Origin: Paenibacillus sp. FSL K6-3182
GTDB lineage: Bacteria; Bacillota; Bacilli; Paenibacillales; Paenibacillaceae
Assembly: GCF_037976325.1 (NCBI RefSeq)
Contig: NZ_CP150265.1
Location: 6,027,001 to 6,091,000, forward strand
Length of the DNA: 64,000 bases
Reading direction: 5' to 3'
This document shows positions 22,226 to 59,960 of this stretch, piece by piece. The stretch's first letter is position 1, and each line of letters opens with the position of its first letter. A model generated the notes under the pieces. It searched no databases. It had not been told where the DNA came from and saw only the letters and a program-made list of their open reading frames with translations. Position numbers and translations under genes: made by a program.

Positions 22226-23428
22226 CTATTTATTTTGACGAACAACATCCTTGCTATTGCTGCGTGTTCCCTCGCCCAGCAATTTCATCGTAACCATGCC
22301 GATTGCCAAGCACCAAACAGGCGCAGAAACGCCAAGAAAGGCGACATTCGCTACCGCAATCGCAAATGTAAAGGCCGTTGAGTAGCGGTAGGCAGATTCC
22401 GAAAAGGCTGACTGAAGGCTTTGAATGAATACCCCCATCAATGAAAAACCCGTTAGAAGCCAAATAAATGAAGACGGAAGAATATTAATAAAGGCAATAA
22501 CCTTCCAAGCAAATAATCCAAATAGCGCCACTAATGTACCCGAGACAATTGCTGCATAAGGACGAGATTCCTTTGCACCAGCTTCTTCGCTGCTGCAAAG
22601 CATACTCATCATTCCTCCAACATTTACACTATGTCCGCCAAGAAACGCTACAGCAGTCGTGGCAAAACCAGTTATCGTAATTGTCTTGGAAGCGGATGGC
22701 TCATAGCCATTTTTGCGAAGTGCTGCCAAAGCTACAAACAAATCGTTGCTAAGCACGAGTATCGACAAAGGGATAGCTAACGATAACAGCCCATTAATCG
22801 AAAACTCAGGGCTCACCACATGCGGCAGCGCAAACGGCAGCACCTCCATTGGAGGCAAATCGTAGCCAATCCATAGAGCAAGCAGCCCCATGCAAACGAC
22901 GCCGAGCACGGGCGGAAAGCCCTTGAATAAACGGGGAAATAAGAAAAAAACGACCAATGCCATAAACCCGACAAAGGGAGCATCCTTGACCGCGGGAACG
23001 ATTTTTACAATATGGTTGAATATTAAACCGGCAAGCATCGCATCCATCAGAGGCTTAGGCAGGAAAGCCAGCAGCTTATCGGACAGACCAGATAAACCAA
23101 ATACAGCGATAATAATCCCGGAAATAATGCTCGCACCAGCTAACTCCTGCACTGTAAATTGTGTCGCAGAAGTGCTTAAGAAAGCAACGGCGGTTATCGA
23201 ATGCGCGCCGCCAAACGGTATTTTATAAATCAACGTCAAAGCTATGTTCAGCAGTCCGCCAAAAAAGTAAACGGCGAACAGCCACGCGACGAGCTCTAAG
23301 GTTGAAAAACCTGCTTTTTCAGCGCTGCTAACGATGAGTACGGCTCCGCCTGTACATGCCAGCATCGCAGATAATATACCAGTAAACACATTTTGCCGAT
23401 TGAGCTTGGATTGGGTTTTTATCATCAA
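22226..23428 (-). CDS. BenE-family membrane transporter
   Basis: 400 residues, about 12 hydrophobic helices, matching the BenE (benzoate/H+ symporter) family. Supporting segments are GGAVLIVSSAEKAG, GGAHSITAVAFLSTSATQF, and GFATTAVAFLGGHSVNVGGMMSMLCSSEEAG, the conserved H/N motif of the second half. BenE imports benzoate in Acinetobacter, but distant members may carry purines or other aromatic or weak acids. No aromatic-degradation genes are nearby, so the substrate is open. Start ATG follows AGGAAG. Confidence 0.8.
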   Translation of the reverse strand: MMIKTQSKLNRQNVFTGILSAMLACTGGAVLIVSSAEKAGFSTLELVAWLFAVYFFGGLLNIALTLIYKIPFGGAHSITAVAFLSTSATQFTVQELAGASIISGIIIAVFGLSGLSDKLLAFLPKPLMDAMLAGLIFNHIVKIVPAVKDAPFVGFMALVVFFLFPRLFKGFPPVLGVVCMGLLALWIGYDLPPMEVLPFALPHVVSPEFSINGLLSLAIPLSILVLSNDLFVALAALRKNGYEPSASKTITITGFATTAVAFLGGHSVNVGGMMSMLCSSEEAGAKESRPYAAIVSGTLVALFGLFAWKVIAFINILPSSFIWLLTGFSLMGVFIQSLQSAFSESAYRYSTAFTFAIAVANVAFLGVSAPVWCLAIGMVTMKLLGEGTRSNSKDVVRQNK

Positions 23429-23809: not shown

Positions 23810-24967
23810 GCTCCATTTCCTACCTTGATCATACGCCGCAGCTACTCTATAAGCGCATATTTGTGCTTACAGACAACAAACCTAGCCCTTTCTCTCGCTG
23901 TAAGAACATATACGTGCTTATTGCTCCATTTCCCACCTCGATCATACGCCACAGCTACTCTATAAGCGCATATTTGTGCTTACAGACAACAAACCTAGCC
24001 CTTTCTCTCGCTGTAAGAACATATACGTGCTTATTGCTCCATTTCTTACCTCGATCATACGCCGCCGCTACTCTGTAAGCTCATATACGTGCTTACAGAC
24101 AACAAACCTAGCCCTTTCTCTCGCTGTAAGAACATATACGTGCTTATTGGTCCATTTCCCACCTCGATCATACGCCGCAGCTACTCTATAAGCGCATATA
24201 TGTGCTTACAGACAACAAACCTAGCTTTTTCTCTCGCTGTAAGAGCATATACGTGCTTATTGCTCCATTTCACACCTCGATCATACGCCGCAGCTACTCC
24301 ATAAGCGCATATACGTGCTTACAGACAACAAACCTAGCCCTTTCTCTCGCTGTAAGAACATATACGTGCTTATTGCTCCATTTCCCACCTCGATCATACG
24401 CCGCCGCTACTCTGTAAGCTCATATACGTGCTTACAGACAACAAACCTAGCCCTTTCTCTCGCTGTAAGAACATATACGTGCTTATTGCTCCATTTCTTA
24501 CCTCGATCATACGCCGCAGCTACTCTATAAGCGCATATTTGTGCTTACAGACAACAAACCTAGCTTTTTCTCTCGCTGTAAGAACATATACGTGCTTATT
24601 GCTCCTTTTCCTACCTCGAGCATACGCCGCAGCTACTCTATAAGCGCATATATGTGCTTACAGACAACAAACATAGCCCTTTCTCTCGCTGTAAGAACAT
24701 ATATGTGCTTATTGCTCAATTTCTTACCTCGATCATACGCCGCCGCTACTCTGTAAGCTCATATACGTGCTTACAGACAACAAACCTCCCCCTTTCTCTC
24801 GCTGTAAGAACATATACGTGCTTATTGCTCCATTTCTTACCTCGATCATACGCCGAAGCTACTCTATAAGCGCATATTTGTGCTTACAGACAACAAACCT
24901 AGCCCTTTCTCTCGCTGTAAGAACATATATGTGCTTATTGCTCAATTTCTTACGTCGATCATACGCC
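23810..24967 (+). repeat. 113-bp tandem repeat array, about 10.25 units
   Basis: Ten full units of 113 bp and a partial one. Each unit holds two copies of the 20-bp near-palindrome TAAGnnCATATnnGTGCTTA, the first copies starting at 23850 and 23901. Distances between motif starts alternate 51 and 62 bp, so the array contains 20 such motifs. The A-type motif (TAAGCGCATATATGTGCTTA) can form an almost complete hairpin with one G-T pair; the B-type is less symmetric. Units 3, 6 and 9 share a diagnostic variant (CCGCCGCTACTCTGTAAGCTC), giving a 339-bp higher-order period. Because 113 is not a multiple of 3, the 71-residue frames across it are artefacts. Not a CRISPR array: there are no unique spacers. 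Confidence 0.95.
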
Positions 24968-25141: not shown

Positions 25142-27328
25142 TTACCATTCCACGCTTACTGCAATTCCTTCCGGAACGCCCGGATAGCGAAGAAGCACCG
25201 TTCCTGACTCTCCATCATACTCGTATGATGCCGCTTGATCACCAGCTGTGACGCTGCTAGGCTCACTTGGTACACGCAGGCGCGTACTAACCGTGATGTC
25301 CAGCGGTGCCTCTGAAACAAAGGAAATTCGGTTTTCAGCCGACAGCTCCTCACGAATGCGAGATGAACTAACAAGAATACTTGTTTCCCCCTGCTGTTTA
25401 TCAGAGTAGTTCAAATCAAACAACAAGCTGTCCTCTCCCGATTTGATTTCCACGGAATGTTTCACAGGCATGCTCGCTTCGAACAAATCAACGAACAATC
25501 CTTCAAGAACAATTGAATCATCCGCTTCCCTCTCATCCAGCACATGAGTAATGACATAAGGCCCCCGTCTCATATGCAGCGAGGTGCTTTCCTTATAATC
25601 AACCATTTCTCCGCGGATCTCGAGCGACCTTTTTACAGCACTCCGTATAAGAGCTGCACCCGCTTCAGAGCGGGACAATTCCGCCGGATTCTCACGGTAA
25701 AATAAAACAGCACCGCTGCCTACCGTAAACTCTCCTTGCTCCGGGTTTCTACCTAAGCCAAGCGACTCGAATAAATGTTCTTCCGGACGCATGTAAGAAC
25801 GGCGGCTGTTCTCACGGTTCCACCATTCCCGTACTTCATGATAGGGGTCCGAGCCGTCACCGACATAGATGAGTATGCCGCCCTCCCTTACCCATTGTCC
25901 GATAGCTTGATGAATGCCCGGATGCTCCGGCTTCATAAATTCGTAGCTGAGCAGCAGCACCCGGTAATGATCCAAATATCCTGGGAAGGTCAAAATATTG
26001 TCCAGCTGTACCGGTCTAAGCGGAATGCCTACCTTCACGAGCGGAAGCGCGAGTCCGTAAAAGGATGACCAGTCAAGAAGCTCCTTCTGCTCTGCACTCA
26101 GCTCTTCAGCTGAACTCGTTCCGTCATATTTGGCAGCTTCGCCTTCCTGCTCGTTTTCACGGATAACGTCCCCGCGTTGATACATCGCAGAGTTGGATAA
26201 GCAAAGGCCAATGCCAGCTGTATAGGCGTCGTCTCCAGCAACCTCATCATGGTTATGCATGTCGCGCAGTACATTCATGACCGTCAGAAGCACGGTCGCA
26301 TAGTCACCCGGGATCATTTCTTTTCCTTTCCCGTCCTCAGTCGGGTAGCTGCCCTCGAATACACGGCGCGGCCATGGGCATACCTCGTATTGCTTCACCT
26401 CAGGATGCAGCAGGGAAGCAACAACAGTAGAACGATAGTTTTTACGATAGTCGCTCCAGCTGTATCTAGGGTTATCCTCAATCGGATCGTGAAGGAACCA
26501 CATTTCACGCCCCGTCCCACGAGTCAGCTCCTGCATAATTCCATATTCCAAATATGCCGTCTCGAAGGTTCGCTCTCTGCGCAGCCCCTTATAAACGTTC
26601 GGAGTACGAGCCGTTCCCGTCCAGATCTGAGCAATGAAACCGTCACAGCCAGGCATCGAAACGAGCAGCGCCTCAGGACTAATAATTCTCCACTGCGTGT
26701 AATTGATCAAGCTGTGAGTTGGGACATAGAAACGCACCGTTCTACCGTAGGTTACTAACGAATATTCCTTCATTTGACTGCAAAGCCGGTCAAGCGCACG
26801 ATAGTACATTGCCGCCTTCAGCTTGGATGCTCTATACTGAGCGTCCGGTGAGGAGTGGGGAGGAATCCAATCCTCCCCGTAATAGTTCAGCCACTCCCGC
26901 TTGAACGCATCGGAATAACCCGATGCCGCCCAAAATTCCGGCTCTTCCAAATGAATCGCTTCTGCGCCAGAGTCGATTGCCCGTTTAATATGAGAAGCCA
27001 AATATTCAGCGAAGGCAATGGTCGGAACCATATAAGGAACATCCTTGCCATGAAGCAGATGATTTCCGCTGCGGTCCATTTGAGCTTCATCCCAGTGCTC
27101 CCGTCCGTCGAATCGACCGTACAAGTAGTCCTGATACTCCCCCCAAGATACACCTGTCATCAAATGAATCTTATAGCCGGCATTTCTCCAGCCTTCGATC
27201 CGCTCAGGCAAGTCATCAGATATTCCGTACACCATGACAAAATCGGTCCGCAAATCATACTTCGGGCCATACGGCCTTGATTCCTGAAAACCGGTCCACT
27301 CTGCTCGTTGTCCCAAACCCTTCGTCAA
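25142..27328 (-). CDS. Unclassified glycoside-hydrolase-like protein (GH42-like layout)
   Basis: 728 residues that I cannot place in a numbered GH family. Residues about 30-400 look like a clan-A TIM barrel, with a candidate catalytic acid in AEAIHLEEPEFWAASGYSDAF and a second acidic strand end in MWFLHDPIEDNP. Residues about 420-560 resemble the Rossmann/amidotransferase-like trimerisation domain of GH42 enzymes (YRVLLLSYEFMKPEH, WVREGGILIYVGDG). The rest is beta-rich. There is no signal peptide. The start is TTG behind AAAGGAGG, which overlaps the stop of the binding-protein gene. As last gene of a GH38/importer operon it probably removes another sugar from the imported glycan. Catalysis is unproven. 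Confidence 0.6.
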   Translation of the reverse strand: MTKGLGQRAEWTGFQESRPYGPKYDLRTDFVMVYGISDDLPERIEGWRNAGYKIHLMTGVSWGEYQDYLYGRFDGREHWDEAQMDRSGNHLLHGKDVPYMVPTIAFAEYLASHIKRAIDSGAEAIHLEEPEFWAASGYSDAFKREWLNYYGEDWIPPHSSPDAQYRASKLKAAMYYRALDRLCSQMKEYSLVTYGRTVRFYVPTHSLINYTQWRIISPEALLVSMPGCDGFIAQIWTGTARTPNVYKGLRRERTFETAYLEYGIMQELTRGTGREMWFLHDPIEDNPRYSWSDYRKNYRSTVVASLLHPEVKQYEVCPWPRRVFEGSYPTEDGKGKEMIPGDYATVLLTVMNVLRDMHNHDEVAGDDAYTAGIGLCLSNSAMYQRGDVIRENEQEGEAAKYDGTSSAEELSAEQKELLDWSSFYGLALPLVKVGIPLRPVQLDNILTFPGYLDHYRVLLLSYEFMKPEHPGIHQAIGQWVREGGILIYVGDGSDPYHEVREWWNRENSRRSYMRPEEHLFESLGLGRNPEQGEFTVGSGAVLFYRENPAELSRSEAGAALIRSAVKRSLEIRGEMVDYKESTSLHMRRGPYVITHVLDEREADDSIVLEGLFVDLFEASMPVKHSVEIKSGEDSLLFDLNYSDKQQGETSILVSSSRIREELSAENRISFVSEAPLDITVSTRLRVPSEPSSVTAGDQAASYEYDGESGTVLLRYPGVPEGIAVSVEW

Positions 27329-27343: not shown

Positions 27344-29020
27344 TTAGTTTGCCATTCCAAACAAAGCTACTTCCTTGCCTTTCAAGTTGTCATTAGTAAA
27401 CTGCATCGCTTCTTTATAGCCTGTTTTATTCATCTGTCCGCGAAGATCATTAATGATTTTTAGTGCCGCTTCATCCGATTTCGCATAAATCGCTTCTTTC
27501 CAGACGTCGCCTATTTTGTCCATGGATGGCTTCAGCATTTCCCACTGTGGAGACTTAATCATAACGTCGCCAGGATTGTATGCCGAAATAACACTAATAC
27601 CGTTAGGACGTAAAATTTTACGCGCATTGTCCATCGCTGCCAGACGATCCTGATCAGACCAGATGTCTCCAGCGCCAACGGAGTTGATGCGGTCTTGGCC
27701 AGACATGCTCTCAAGGCCAATGCCCATGCCTTCGTTTTTCTTCATCTTGCCAGTTGTATCCGCTGAGAATTTATCAAACCATTCTTTTTTGGCTACAGGC
27801 TTGCCGTTTTCCATATCCCAATGTTCGCCTTGAATGCCGTAACGTACGAGAAGGAAACCTTCATCAGAAGCAAGATAGTCCAGCAGGCGAAGCGCTGCAT
27901 CTACGTTTTTCGATTTTTTCGGAATAACGGTTACGTTGTTTCCTTGAATAGAAAGGTCAGCAGGACGGTCAGCAGCAGCACCAGCACGCTCAAGCGGGCC
28001 GACTGGAATATAATCGCTGCCTGGATGCGCTTTCACATAGTCCTTGGAAGCATCGAGAATCGCTGGATAGTGAGCAGCCAGCACTGCAATACGACCTTGC
28101 TTGATTTTCTCATTCGCGATTGGATCGGTTTGCGTAAACGCTTCAAGATCAAGCAGACCTTCGGAGATCAGCTTGCGGTAATACAGCGTATAATCCTCGT
28201 ATTGTTTCGAGAAGAAGCTGTTTTCCAGCGTTCCATCACCTTTATCTACATAACCAGAGCCATAGAACATCGTATTACCAATACCAACAGCCCAGCCGTT
28301 ATGGAAGCCTCCGAGAGGAATAACAGACATGCCATTTTCCTTCAGGTCAGCGTCCTTGATTTTTTTCAGGAAGCTGTAAAGCTCTTCCTTTGTACGTACG
28401 GATTGCGGATCTACTCCAACCTTCTCAGCAATATCCTTGCGGACATAGAAGCCATAAAGCCAATCCATTGCATCCTCAGGTGTTGCAGGGTGGTTCTGGT
28501 AAAGCAAGAACTGCTTGCCGTCATACACATCAAAAGCTTTCTCATAAAGCGCTGGCGGAACATTGTCTTTCTGAATCGCTTTTGCTAGATTTGGATATTT
28601 GTCCAGCTTATCCGAAAGATCGACCAATTGGTCTTCCTTCGCTGCTTTTATAATTCCATCTAGCTCTCCGCCCCAAGCTGGACCTGTGTAAATATCAGGC
28701 ATATCTTGAGTTGCAAAAATGGTGTTCACTTTCTCAACTTCACTGCCCTTTGTATATTCCCACTCGATCGTAATCCCCGTTTTTTCTTTAATAACCTTCT
28801 CGATCGCCGTCGTATCTGTGTCGCTGCCGCTGGAGCCGTTCCAGTTGTGAAGAACTTTGAGTTTCACCTCTTTTTGCTCTGTACCGCTGTTAGTTGTGCC
28901 TGCGTTGTCCGAAGGCTTATTGACGGCGCCACCGTTGTTGTTGCTGCAGCCAAACAGCGTAACCGCCATCAGAGTTACTGCGAGTAACAACGAAGTGCTT
29001 TTTGCTCTTTTGTTCTTCAT
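27344..29020 (-). CDS. Sugar-binding lipoprotein of ABC importer (alpha-mannoside operon)
   Basis: 558 residues with lipobox LFGCSNN and the long (LplA-type) extracellular solute-binding fold (DMPDIYTGPAWGGELDGIIKA, LYGFYVRKDIAEKVG). Such proteins work with LplB/YteP- and LplC/YtcP-type permeases, which are encoded immediately upstream. It would deliver a glycan fragment for the co-encoded alpha-mannosidase. Start behind GGGAGGG. Confidence 0.9.
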   Translation of the reverse strand: MKNKRAKSTSLLLAVTLMAVTLFGCSNNNGGAVNKPSDNAGTTNSGTEQKEVKLKVLHNWNGSSGSDTDTTAIEKVIKEKTGITIEWEYTKGSEVEKVNTIFATQDMPDIYTGPAWGGELDGIIKAAKEDQLVDLSDKLDKYPNLAKAIQKDNVPPALYEKAFDVYDGKQFLLYQNHPATPEDAMDWLYGFYVRKDIAEKVGVDPQSVRTKEELYSFLKKIKDADLKENGMSVIPLGGFHNGWAVGIGNTMFYGSGYVDKGDGTLENSFFSKQYEDYTLYYRKLISEGLLDLEAFTQTDPIANEKIKQGRIAVLAAHYPAILDASKDYVKAHPGSDYIPVGPLERAGAAADRPADLSIQGNNVTVIPKKSKNVDAALRLLDYLASDEGFLLVRYGIQGEHWDMENGKPVAKKEWFDKFSADTTGKMKKNEGMGIGLESMSGQDRINSVGAGDIWSDQDRLAAMDNARKILRPNGISVISAYNPGDVMIKSPQWEMLKPSMDKIGDVWKEAIYAKSDEAALKIINDLRGQMNKTGYKEAMQFTNDNLKGKEVALFGMAN

Positions 29021-42043: not shown

Positions 42044-45000
42044 CTATTCTTTCGCTGTTAGCAAATTCAATATTCGGTAAAGAAACACTGCTGTTTCAGC
42101 ACGGGTAGTATGGCTGCTTGGCTTGATCATGCCGCCATCGCCTTGAATGAGCCCTAGCTCAATCATGCCTGCTATGCTGCTGGCTGCATAATCTGGCACC
42201 TTATCTGAATCCTTGAAGCTGCTGAGCGATGCAATATCGCCAGGTAGCTCTAACGCTTCCGCTGCCTTTAATGCCCGCGCTGCCATAACCATCATATCTT
42301 GCCTTGTCATCTTTGCCTTCGGCTCGAATCGTCCCCCCTCCATGCCGGTAACGATACCTAGCTTCTTGGCAATAGCCACTGCATCATAATAATAATCCTG
42401 TGGCTGAACATCTATGAATGCATCGCTTGCCTCCGCTTTCAAGCCTAACGCTCTTACAAGCATTAGAATAAAGTCTGCTCGGCTTACCTGTACAGCCGGG
42501 CTGAAGGTTGCAGCCGATGTTCCTTTTACGATGCCTAAGGCAGCCAACTTCTCAACCGCTTCCTGCGCCCAAGAGTATTTGCCGAGATCTGTAAAGGCTG
42601 CTGCGGGCTGTTTATAAAATACTGCATAAGTGCCCATACGGTCTGTTTGGAACCTGATATGTTTATCTGAGTCGGAAAAGGCTGCTGCCGCAATTGCTGA
42701 TGCTGTGCCTTGTTCATTAATGGACAATATACCGATGCTTGACGCTGTCTCGCTGCCTGTTAACAAATACGGGACCGTAACGGTAATCGGTGCCTTTGCA
42801 TTGGTCCATGCATAAGCCTTTCCGTCCAATAACGCCGAAAGCTCAACGACTGCTCTTTCACCTACCTGGATCTGTACATCCTGCTTCAACGTTTTAAGGT
42901 CCCGCTCGCCGATGATAAGCCGCAGCTCCTTGCCAAGCTCTGCTGACTTCACCAGCATCTGTCCAGAAAGCAAGATCGTTGCTTTAGGCGTCGTTACTTC
43001 AATAAGCAAGTTAGGATGCTCAGACAAGAAGGATACAGGAAGATCCAAAGCATACTTCGCTGCCTCGCCGTTTTTCTTAAGCACAATCATTGCTTTCAGC
43101 TTTCCATCTTTATCTGCTTTAGCCCGAGCTAACGCCTTCTGCAGGTCTTGTTCACTGACTACACCGACTGCCATCGTTCCACTAGGATCAAGCTTTGTGT
43201 TCATTTCCGCTTTGACAGAACCATCTGATTGCAGCTGGAACAAGTCAGGAGTGGAAATGACCGAGTCCCCGCCTCCTCCGCCAGTCGATGCTTTCTTGTA
43301 CTCAAAAGTAACCCGTTTAGGCTTGCTCATATCATCTAATGCTAGATATGCCTCATAGGTACCCTCTAATTCACCCGTAAGCGTAAATGCAAATTGGAAG
43401 TTTCCAGCTTCTGTACTCGTCGTCTCCGCTGTGTAATGAACCTTGCCTTGCGGATCAAGCACCTTCAAACTTACTTTTGTATGATCGCCATTTACCACTA
43501 ACCCATCGATCGTTACTTTTTTGGTTGCAGCATCTAGTCCAGCTTTAACTCCTTCTATCGTCTTAATAACCTCGATTTCTTTCTTGTACTCAAAAGTAAT
43601 CTTCTCAGGTTCACTCATATCATCTGTTGCTAGATATGCCTCATAGATACCCTCTATTTCACCTGTAAGTGTAAAGTCGAATTGGAAGTTTCCGGAAGCT
43701 TCACTCATCTTCTTCGCTTCATAATGAACCTTGCCTTGTGGATCGATGACTTTCAAACTTACGTTTGCAAGATCGCCATTCATCACCAGACCGTCTAAAG
43801 TTACTTTTTTGGATGCCGCATCTACCGTAGTTTTAATGCCTTCAATAGGCTTGGCTTCCTCTGTTCCCGATAAGTGATAAACGCCAAATTCATAGAACGA
43901 ATATCCGTAAAATGTCGCTCTTTCGATCCCTTCAAATTTAATGTATCTAGCCTCGATAGGGTCAAAATGAACGGTTTCTTTGCCGTCTTTCGCCGTAATC
44001 ACGCCGTCATTTTCCTTGATTACACTCTTCCAATTTTGCTTATCATCGGAGACGAGCAATCTGTAGGTTTTCGCGCGAGCGTATTCCCAATCAATGGTTA
44101 CGGTGTCCATCTCCGTCACTTCACCGAGATCGACCTGGAACCACGTATTGTTGAGCAGTTCGCTTGCCCATCTTGTTGACGGGAATCCATCAACAGCTTT
44201 CCCCGGAGCATAATTTGGACTATCGGCTTCTACTGTAGATGCTTCCGCAGCTTTATTCAGCGCCAAATTTCCAAGCAGATAATAGATGTCTTCCTTCAGC
44301 GTGTTATAAGCCCCATCTGTAATCATCTGATCCTTTTTCAGAAGCTCCAGCTTCGCATTAAAGCCTTTCAAGTACATAGTAAACTTCGCCTTATCGCTTC
44401 CTTCGAACCGGCTCATCATCTCCAAATAATTGTTCAGCGACCGAGCCGCTTCCTCATTCGTGATTTGTTTGGTTTCCTTATAGCTTTGAATTAAAGTTTT
44501 CAAATTGGAAGCGTTAGTTCCAGCCTCAATCACATAAGTTGTTTTCTCCGATTTGCCTGCTGCTACGGTAATGACAAGCTCATGTTTTCCTGGCTTGCCA
44601 GCCAGATTAATAACGGTTCCTTCCGTATAAGGCTTGCCGTTAAAGGCAGCCGTTACTTTATTAAGTCCGCTTCCAGCATCATCGATTAATTTCCACGTAA
44701 AGGAAACGGGCTCTCTTTCTGAAATAACGACTCCGCTTTGAAGCACTTTGCCATTCATTTGTACTTCTGCCTTTGGAGGGGCAGCGTTGTTCGCTTGATA
44801 TGTTCCATTCACAAACTGATAGAGCCAATCGTATAAAATACGTGTTGCAGGATCAGAGCTTACCGCAGTATCAAACACGGCATTATTACCTTGGTAATAG
44901 GCTTTAAAGCCTGATTTCATAAAACCAGCTTTAACACCGCTGTTTAAATAATCAACATACCGCTCCCTAAACACACCATCTGTCAGCATTCGATCATCAA

Positions 45001-58610: not shown

Positions 58611-59960
58611 TTGAAGAAAAAAAGCTCAGTTTCTATCGTTACAGGATCACTTATCATCGCACTTGCTCTAGCAGGCTGCGGCAGCAACAATCAAGCAAAC
58701 AGCACAGAACAAAATAAAGCAACGGAAAAACCAACCGATAAGGCAACAGACAAAGAAACAGATAAAAAAGTGACGATTGAATATTGGCAATATGAATTTC
58801 CAGCCAAGGTTGAACTGATCAACGAACTCATAAAAGAATTCCAAACCTTACATCCGAACATTACCGTAAAACAAACCAACTTCCCTTATGATCAATACAA
58901 TCAGAAGGTTGCTACGCTGGTGCCAGCCGGCAAAGGCCCAGATGTTATTAACCTCTACTATGGCTGGCTGCCGAAATACGTCTCATCCGGTTACTTGCAG
59001 CCGCTGCCTGAGGATCATTTTCCAACTGCGGAAATTGAAAGCAATTTTTACCCATTAGTCAGCGCCGCAAAAATTAATGGCTCTTATTACGCTATTCCTA
59101 CTGCCGTACGCACACTCGCCTTGTTCTACAATAAGGATCTATTGTCCAAAGCCAATATTACTGAGCTTCCTACGACATGGGAGCAGCTGGTAGACGTATC
59201 CAAGAAACTGACAGAAACAGATGCCAAAGGGCAGTTTGTCACTGAAGGTTTCGCATGGGAGCCCGGTGCGCAGCTGCATCACTGGTATCGAGATGGTCTG
59301 CTGCATCAAGCAGGCGGTCAAGACTTAAGCGATGATCGACGCAAAATATTATGGGCAGAAACACCTGCAGGTTTGGAGGCATTTCAATATTTAATCGATT
59401 TTGCCGTGAAGCATAAGGTTGGGATTAACGGATTTTATGAGAATGACAGCAATGCCTTTATGACCGGTCATGCAGCTATTAATATCGACGGTTCCTTCCG
59501 ACTTGGCTCCATTAAGAAGGACTTTCCAGATTTAAACTATGGCGTTGCACCTCTTCCATCCTACAAAACCAAATCAGCTCCGTCCTCCTTCTGGGCGAAC
59601 GCCATTCCCAAAAATGTTGAAGGCGACAAGCTGAAGGCTGCTTCTGAATTTTTGGAATTTCTAACGAGCAAAGAGGTTCAGGAGAAATGGGTAGAGCAAA
59701 TCGGAGAGCTTCCAGCACAAAAAGCGGTTGCGACGCAGGATAAATACGTAAACGACGAGAAGCTAGGGCCATTTATTTCCCAATTGGACGATAGCCGCGC
59801 GCATTTCTTCATCGACGAAACCCAAGAAAAAACATTGTTTGTTGATGCGACAAATGAAGTGCTCCTCAATAAAGTTCCGGTCGAGAAAGCCTTTCAAGAC
59901 CTTGTAGCCAAAACGCAAAAGCTCTATGACGACTATTGGGCTGCTGCAGACAAAAAGTAA
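58611..59960 (+). CDS. Solute-binding lipoprotein of ABC importer (lyase operon)
   Basis: 449 residues with lipobox LALAGCGSN, a Thr/Lys-rich linker, and a type 1 extracellular binding fold (VTIEYWQYEFPAKVELI, GKGPDVINLYYGWL, GHAAINIDGSFRLG). The start is TTG behind AAAGGAGTGG. Such CUT1 proteins normally bind sugars, but here the partner enzymes are a lyase, an amidohydrolase and an FMN monooxygenase. The ligand may therefore be an unusual organic acid or organosulfur compound. Confidence 0.9.
   Translation: MKKKSSVSIVTGSLIIALALAGCGSNNQANSTEQNKATEKPTDKATDKETDKKVTIEYWQYEFPAKVELINELIKEFQTLHPNITVKQTNFPYDQYNQKVATLVPAGKGPDVINLYYGWLPKYVSSGYLQPLPEDHFPTAEIESNFYPLVSAAKINGSYYAIPTAVRTLALFYNKDLLSKANITELPTTWEQLVDVSKKLTETDAKGQFVTEGFAWEPGAQLHHWYRDGLLHQAGGQDLSDDRRKILWAETPAGLEAFQYLIDFAVKHKVGINGFYENDSNAFMTGHAAINIDGSFRLGSIKKDFPDLNYGVAPLPSYKTKSAPSSFWANAIPKNVEGDKLKAASEFLEFLTSKEVQEKWVEQIGELPAQKAVATQDKYVNDEKLGPFISQLDDSRAHFFIDETQEKTLFVDATNEVLLNKVPVEKAFQDLVAKTQKLYDDYWAAADKK

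Follow-up and report, generated by a model that had tools for sequence, protein, structure and literature searches.

The closest described systems are the REP/BIME elements with their RAYT (the REPtron). Like them, the arrays described here have paired extragenic palindromes with alternating linkers (51 and 61-62 bp, between ORFs), tandem amplification, dispersed copies and a gene flanked by its own palindromes. REP palindromes keep complementary changes, according to an excerpt of PMC2817692. Unlike RAYT, which is a Y1 HUH transposase, the enzyme found with our arrays is a predicted PD-(D/E)XK-wHTH protein, and, in further contrast to REP/BIME elements, there is no stem covariation and the spacings follow helical turns. 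The enzyme itself appears to be akin to the MTES_1575/DUF559/Vsr-type REases, with 39 of 44 aligned members matching each of the MTES_1575 and DUF559 models (PF18741, PF04480) at E<=0.01. Combinations of a Vsr-type REase with a wHTH are known, as seen in an excerpt of PMC3710099. Unlike the REases of that family, the protein here stands alone, is about 230 aa long and has adjoining tandem arrays.

Homing endonucleases are selfish nucleases with a long specific site. They are the nearest functional analogy. Here, in contrast, there are many targets per genome and no intron or intein was seen. The parS sites of partition systems are arrays of protein-bound palindromes. The present arrays, in contrast, are spread chromosome-wide at 0.59-3.1 Mb from dnaA, with the nearest one 0.59 Mb away and no cluster at the origin, and the partition site that the original prediction had offered as one reading is not supported. 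CRISPR loci have palindromic repeats at regular spacing, but the spacers here recur inside each array instead of being unique, in keeping with the earlier statement that this is not a CRISPR. No account of the arrays or of their link to a nuclease was found in the open-access literature, as far as excerpts of it go.

A tandem array and its relatives in one genome

The window is the whole stretch of 64,000 nucleotides of Paenibacillus sp. FSL K6-3182 that was analysed. Its array lies between ORFs, as seen in Table 1, which agrees with the noncoding nature claimed for it. The other structural claims of the original prediction, namely ten 113-bp units with two motif copies each at alternating 51- and 62-bp distances and BenE as a neighbor, were borne out by TRF, the motif search and Pfam. 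All 20 sites carry TAAGNNCATATNNGTGCTTA with 0 mismatches, the last of them starting at 24918. With up to one mismatch and both strands counted, there were 24 matches, compared to 0 in 100 dinucleotide shuffles. An Rfam scan of the window at gathering thresholds gave no match. Elsewhere in the window, a 288-bp sequence is repeated 1.9 times (43291-43824) and there is a 12/24-bp repeat, ATAAAGCAACAG, at 58714-58766.

Table 1. Positions of the array, its flanking genes and related features (window coordinates unless prefixed G000)
Feature	Position	Strand	Remarks
Tandem array	23810..24967	.	TRF: period 113 bp, 10.2 copies, 92% match
20 near-palindromic 20-mers	23850..24937	.	51 and 62 bp apart alternately; 0 expected by chance
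A sites (n=10)	from 23850		step 113 bp
B sites (n=10)	from 23901		step 113 bp
First A site, TAAGCGCATATTTGTGCTTA	23850..23869	.	
First B site, TAAGAACATATACGTGCTTA	23901..23920	.	51 bp after first A site
Short spacer, 31 bp (CAG...CTG)	23870..23900	.	like short spacers of other G000 arrays
Long spacer, 42 bp	23921..23962	.	
BenE benzoate transporter, flanking gene	22226..23428	-	ORF; Pfam BenE E 1.2e-65; its 5' side faces the array
Flanking gene, 728 aa, without Pfam family	25142..27328	-	ORF; 3' end toward the array
Solute-binding protein gene	27344-29020		next after the 728-aa gene; on the side of the putative 'alpha-mannoside operon' named in the original prediction
Nuclease gene beside the window's dialect	G000:C1:3101335-3102024		adjoins ftsZ; 2.95 Mb from the window
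Arrays related to that of gene 1298222	G000:C1:2400447-2401141 and 6370215-6371141		period ~123-124 bp; 67-80% identity

An assembly artefact had been named as a possible objection. An orthologous array is also present in a second assembly of the same species (Paenibacillus sp. FSL A5-0031, G033), where the surrounding DNA is 95-97% identical to the window; it has 4.2 copies there, a number that is uncertain in this draft. Plasmids and phages searched by blastn with the window array gave no match. Double-site matches in 33 IMG/VR stretches were rejected, as they had no array and looked by eye like chance or coding matches. No clean empty site for the window array was found among the BenE homologs of seven relatives (G029, G031, G040, G032, G022, G018 and G046). 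These homologs had no TAAG site in the flanks of up to 1.5 kb that were inspected on each side, and the DNA past BenE was not collinear with the window.

Going beyond the original prediction, the window array is one of many and is tied to a nuclease family. In the window's genome (G000, 7.56 Mb), the motif with up to 2 mismatches occurred 213 times on the forward and 214 times on the reverse strand, compared to 2 and 4 times for a reversed control pattern. There are at least 16 arrays including the window's, each with 2-27 detected sites; 17 other regions were fetched, of which 15 held an array of the same kind, one a single site and one none. Neighboring sites are mostly 51 and 60-62 bp apart, with exceptions of 50, 53 and 120 bp, runs of 61/61, and gaps at missed or degenerate sites. 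TRF, which is blind to the motif, reported 112 or 113 as the basic period of each of the 15 other arrays. The arrays have a common geometry and the half-site TAAGNNC, and their units are related to one another, with TAAG..C..AT..G..CTTA retained while the spacers have drifted far apart. The window array is an orphan member of this TAAGNNC family. There was a hint that the arrays avoid the origin and terminus, but the p for the largest two gaps combined was 0.20. No recurrent transposase was seen beside the arrays among the 40 largest clusters of neighboring ORFs.

Half-site dialects in related species

Of 51 genomes of the genus, 14 had one or more 51-bp pairs when 2 mismatches were allowed, and with the controls none had. 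The window motif with up to 1 mismatch was present in 13 of 394 family genomes, all of the same genus. A looser three-site pattern found 64 stretches in a collection of named genomes, and their titles were Paenibacillus, Saccharibacillus, another genus of the Paenibacillaceae, and two 'Bacillus sp. FJAT' strains. One of these strains, FJAT-28004, is called Paenibacillus in the title of its genome paper, and the other, FJAT-26390 (G031), belongs to the window's genus.

Related species have the same array geometry, often with another half-site dialect. The halves are CAC, AAC and CGC in G000 and FJAT-28004. P. sacheonensis and P. taihuensis have TGC, P. flagellatus has GTA, and NEAU-GSW1 (G038) has mostly GCC along with GTA. 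Dialects are broadly consistent over unlinked loci with different spacers. TRF periods in the relatives were 112-114 where arrays were detected (10 of 20 fetched regions). Since loci were fetched partly by TAAG and by the 51/61 spacing, the conservation of both is partly ascertained, and the evidence free of ascertainment is that of the TRF periods and the paralog arrays. In 11 array pairs with common neighbors in G000 and FJAT-28004, the palindromes (0.80-0.97 identical) were more conserved than the spacers (0.67-0.85); a twelfth pair, the window and L107, was judged not orthologous (palindromes 0.78, spacers 0.54).

The orientation of arrays to genes was considered at 69 loci, from which 8 'far' ones and 12 at the edge of a stretch were excluded. 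The remaining 49 comprised 28 co-directional, 17 convergent and 4 divergent cases, with orthologs counted repeatedly. Array copy number varies between genomes, partly between drafts. One single-contig genome has a very long array (G032:C1:415575-417997), with 22 units listed at 112-bp steps. Other tandem repeats adjoin TAAG arrays at two loci: an 81-bp repeat with a TAAGTGC half in P. sacheonensis (L105:3208-3537), and 71-bp and 327-bp repeats (TAACGAACCCCATTCGCTGATTA...) next to a TAAGGCC array in NEAU-GSW1 (L222:6785-8238), which are possibly an orphan array of another family.

The putative nuclease gene and its adjoining arrays

A gene of ~230 aa beside some arrays is predicted, from Pfam and AF2, to encode a Vsr/DUF559-like nuclease of the PD-(D/E)XK type whose C-terminal part is a winged helix. 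Of the 51 genus genomes, 50 carry a homolog, and many of these carry more than one copy, with 7 in G000. The gene is present in 46 of 398 Bacilli genomes, which represent 21 of the 146 genera covered. Outside Bacilli the full-length family is rare: among 398 genomes sampled across the phylum there were 13 matches, and one full-length match lies outside the taxonomic family of the window. The presumed catalytic residues D72, E85 and D87 (a D...ExD/K acidic triad) do not vary among the 44 aligned members, and two diverged members have ExK. One member, L106, is below both profile cut-offs (24.4 vs 38.2; 18.4 vs 20.6). The AF2 model had a pLDDT of 84.4 and a pTM of 0.62; Foldseek matched it to nucleases only at E>=3e-3, with none in PDB at E<=0.001. 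The rows from VIA-align were mainly on the winged helix. PADLOC and NCBIfam gave weak matches only, for a minority of members. Members of the family are annotated under names such as 'DNA-binding response regulator', 'DUF559 domain-containing' or 'very-short-patch-repair endonuclease'. As judged by codon comparison, the gene is under purifying selection, with dN/dS of 0.07-0.27 in five pairs (dS saturated in three). Internal stops were found in 3 of 50 gene copies (L237, L251, L257), and three further copies have a stop at the C-terminal end only.

Most of the family members examined come with an array of their own. A TRF array (period 45-130, score>=100) lay within 300 bp of 28 of 50 nuclease loci, compared to 0.47% of random gene-sized intervals drawn from 400 kb of the own genome only. 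The 50 loci were the best matches of the 30 top-ranked genus genomes and 20 copies chosen before the flanks were viewed, and they retain two duplicates, L231 and L245. Removing both and adding 29 loci from the Bacilli survey gave 77 loci, of which 47 showed strong direct repetition (>=30/40 in the +-420 bp flanks) compared to 2.1% of 3000 control intervals, again from the own genome only. The added Bacilli loci contributed 15 of these. The other 30 of the 77 were under the threshold, and L237, L255 and L268 are among the loci without a clear repeat. In one Bacilli genome (L320), 106-bp arrays flank the nuclease gene on both sides.

The best offsets of the 47 loci were 40-44 bp (3 loci), 49-52 (8), 61-63 (2), 74 (1), 82-84 (3), 95 (1), 102-106 (4), 111-113 (14) and 123-126 (11), most of which lie close to a whole number of helical turns or to the sum of two steps of this kind. 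When offsets of no more than 80 bp were tested for phase, without a null, there was a broad peak at 10.9-11.3 bp (R 0.80, compared to 0.77 for 10.5). Among 19 adjacent arrays, two dyads per unit were recognised in 5, one in 6 and none in 7, with one array lacking a usable unit, so that 'palindromic' cannot stand for all adjacent arrays. The centers of two-palindrome units were 51/61 (L272), 51/72 (L266), 52/73 (L279), 52/72 (L249) and 51/73 bp (L258) apart. Their palindromes differ by member, such as AATAACGCTG..CAGCGTTATT (L272), TAGATCTA.. (L266) and TTAAGGTCCCT..AGGGACCTTAA (L279).

Arrays were present in 10 of 11 genomes with a homolog at least 60% identical, compared to 4 of 40 without one (Fisher p 8e-7, uncorrected for kinship). 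The eleventh genome, G046, lacks arrays, and its gene copy has an internal stop. In 13 of 14 array-bearing genomes, the best match has one or more TAAG sites within 1.5 kb, with only one site in G008, G018 and G040. The exception, G004, has one weak TAAG pair, and its best homolog (46% identity) adjoins a non-TAAG array. Genomes whose gene copy has an internal stop had 0, 1 and 5 pairs, compared to 4-148 for intact copies (Mann-Whitney p 0.012, n=3 and 8, several of them drafts). G040, G014 and G038 were excluded from this comparison because their match is diverged or starts only at residue 15, and the G008 copy is partial and 54% identical.

Six genomes, which represent five species, have the array beside the nuclease gene between ftsZ and spoIIGA. 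Two dialects occur in NEAU-GSW1, where 2 of the 8 homologs adjoin TAAG arrays, one per dialect: GTA sites adjoin the gene at the ftsZ locus, and GCC sites flank the other gene on both sides. In P. flagellatus, GTA sites adjoin a frame-broken gene copy. The more alike two nucleases are, the more alike are their half-sites: the Mantel r for 19 proteins was -0.515, and 0 of 5000 shuffles were as low, a value that is inflated by relatedness. The GTA nuclease of NEAU-GSW1 is closer to its own GCC paralog (54%) than to the partial GTA nuclease of P. flagellatus (51%), which counts against dialect pairing. No TAAG palindromes were found beside the other six G000 gene copies; four of them are near other tandem repeats (L260, L262, L263 with a 37-bp unit, and L264) and two, L261 and L265, are not. 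A second G000 paralog, gene 1298222, has an adjoining 123-bp array, and arrays related to it lie away from all seven G000 gene copies found (Table 1). Orphan arrays like the window's are, therefore, a repeated outcome.

Interpretation of the arrays

Genes and arrays are paired, the spacing is mostly in whole turns, and the dialects track the neighboring gene. On sequence grounds, the palindromes are very likely to be the binding sites of the nuclease-wHTH protein, and the array as a whole would probably consist of targets, in phase with the helix, of a homodimeric PD-(D/E)XK (Vsr/DUF559-like) winged-helix nuclease. One winged helix would read each TAAGNNC half-site, and dimers would line up next to each other along the same face of the helix. 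The comparison across arrays and genomes thus favors one part of the original prediction, a phased protein-binding array that is not a CRISPR, and speaks against its hairpin and partition readings. The conserved active-site residues suggest that the nuclease cuts or nicks the palindromic sites. Break repair and unequal exchange may then amplify the arrays, and orphan arrays such as the window's may be seeded in tolerated intergenic positions, with a selfish or commensal nuclease-plus-satellite system as the outcome. We propose this cutting-and-spreading step tentatively. A nuclease that cuts its own chromosome at 20 sites should be toxic if neither its expression nor its activity is kept in check. 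The stability of orthologous arrays across species also points to a slow spread or to a role in the host.

The main rival, which we consider unlikely, is a host-beneficial architectural or regulatory array, in which cooperative binding organises the DNA or insulates 3' ends and the nuclease center is auxiliary or silent. Stable orthologous positions, as at the ftsZ-spoIIGA gene in six genomes of five species, and the 3'-biased placement (28 co-directional, 17 convergent, 4 divergent) favor such a role, and whole-turn spacing and purifying selection on the gene would fit it as well. Against it are the invariance of D72, E85 and D87 in 44 members, the patchy presence (14 of 51 genus genomes), a copy number that varies, partly between drafts, and the internal stops in 3 of 50 gene copies. 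Much less probable is neutral satellite DNA with a gene beside it by mechanistic accident. Tandem arrays do expand through slippage and unequal exchange, and copy number does vary, but the adjacency at 47 of 77 loci (2.1% in controls), the period retained despite unlike spacers and the match of dialect to nuclease are hard to reconcile with neutrality.

A hairpin or cruciform array retained for its secondary structure, another reading in the original prediction, is highly improbable. The sites are near-palindromic, and many GTA and GCC dialect sites have perfectly palindromic arms. However, in the three genomes that made up the independence test (the GTA and GCC dialects vary too little for it), the left and right halves were identical at positions 5-7 in 28 of 92 (29.0 expected), 24 of 89 (30.0) and 18 of 56 (15.9). 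Since the half-sites vary about independently, base-pairing is not kept there and the hairpin idea is unsupported, whereas such variation is as expected for a dimer site. The sites, therefore, look like dimer sites rather than hairpins, as far as their letters tell. REP/BIME-type elements moved by a RAYT have the same layout of extragenic palindromes with short and long linkers in turn in tandem units. This explanation has next to no probability, given that Y1_Tnp (PF01797) was found in 0 of 14 array-bearing genus genomes compared to 8 of 37 others, and that hairpin covariation is lacking.

With the nuclease-bound reading preferred, the arrays and genes look like an undescribed protein-plus-repeat system of Paenibacillus and other Bacilli. 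That they form a new class of Bacilli element, in which a PD-(D/E)XK-winged-helix protein sits as dimers on phased palindromes in lineage-specific dialects and makes and disperses its own arrays via controlled cleavage or nicking, is a proposal with somewhat less than an even chance of being right. If true, a variously annotated nuclease family would be matched to a specific partner on the DNA, and one class of satellite DNA in bacteria would have its owner. It would also be a second system of a protein plus extragenic palindromes besides REP/RAYT, built on unrelated enzymology. The family would then offer many natural protein-site pairs for studying the evolution of DNA specificity, and its phased arrays may serve as binding scaffolds.
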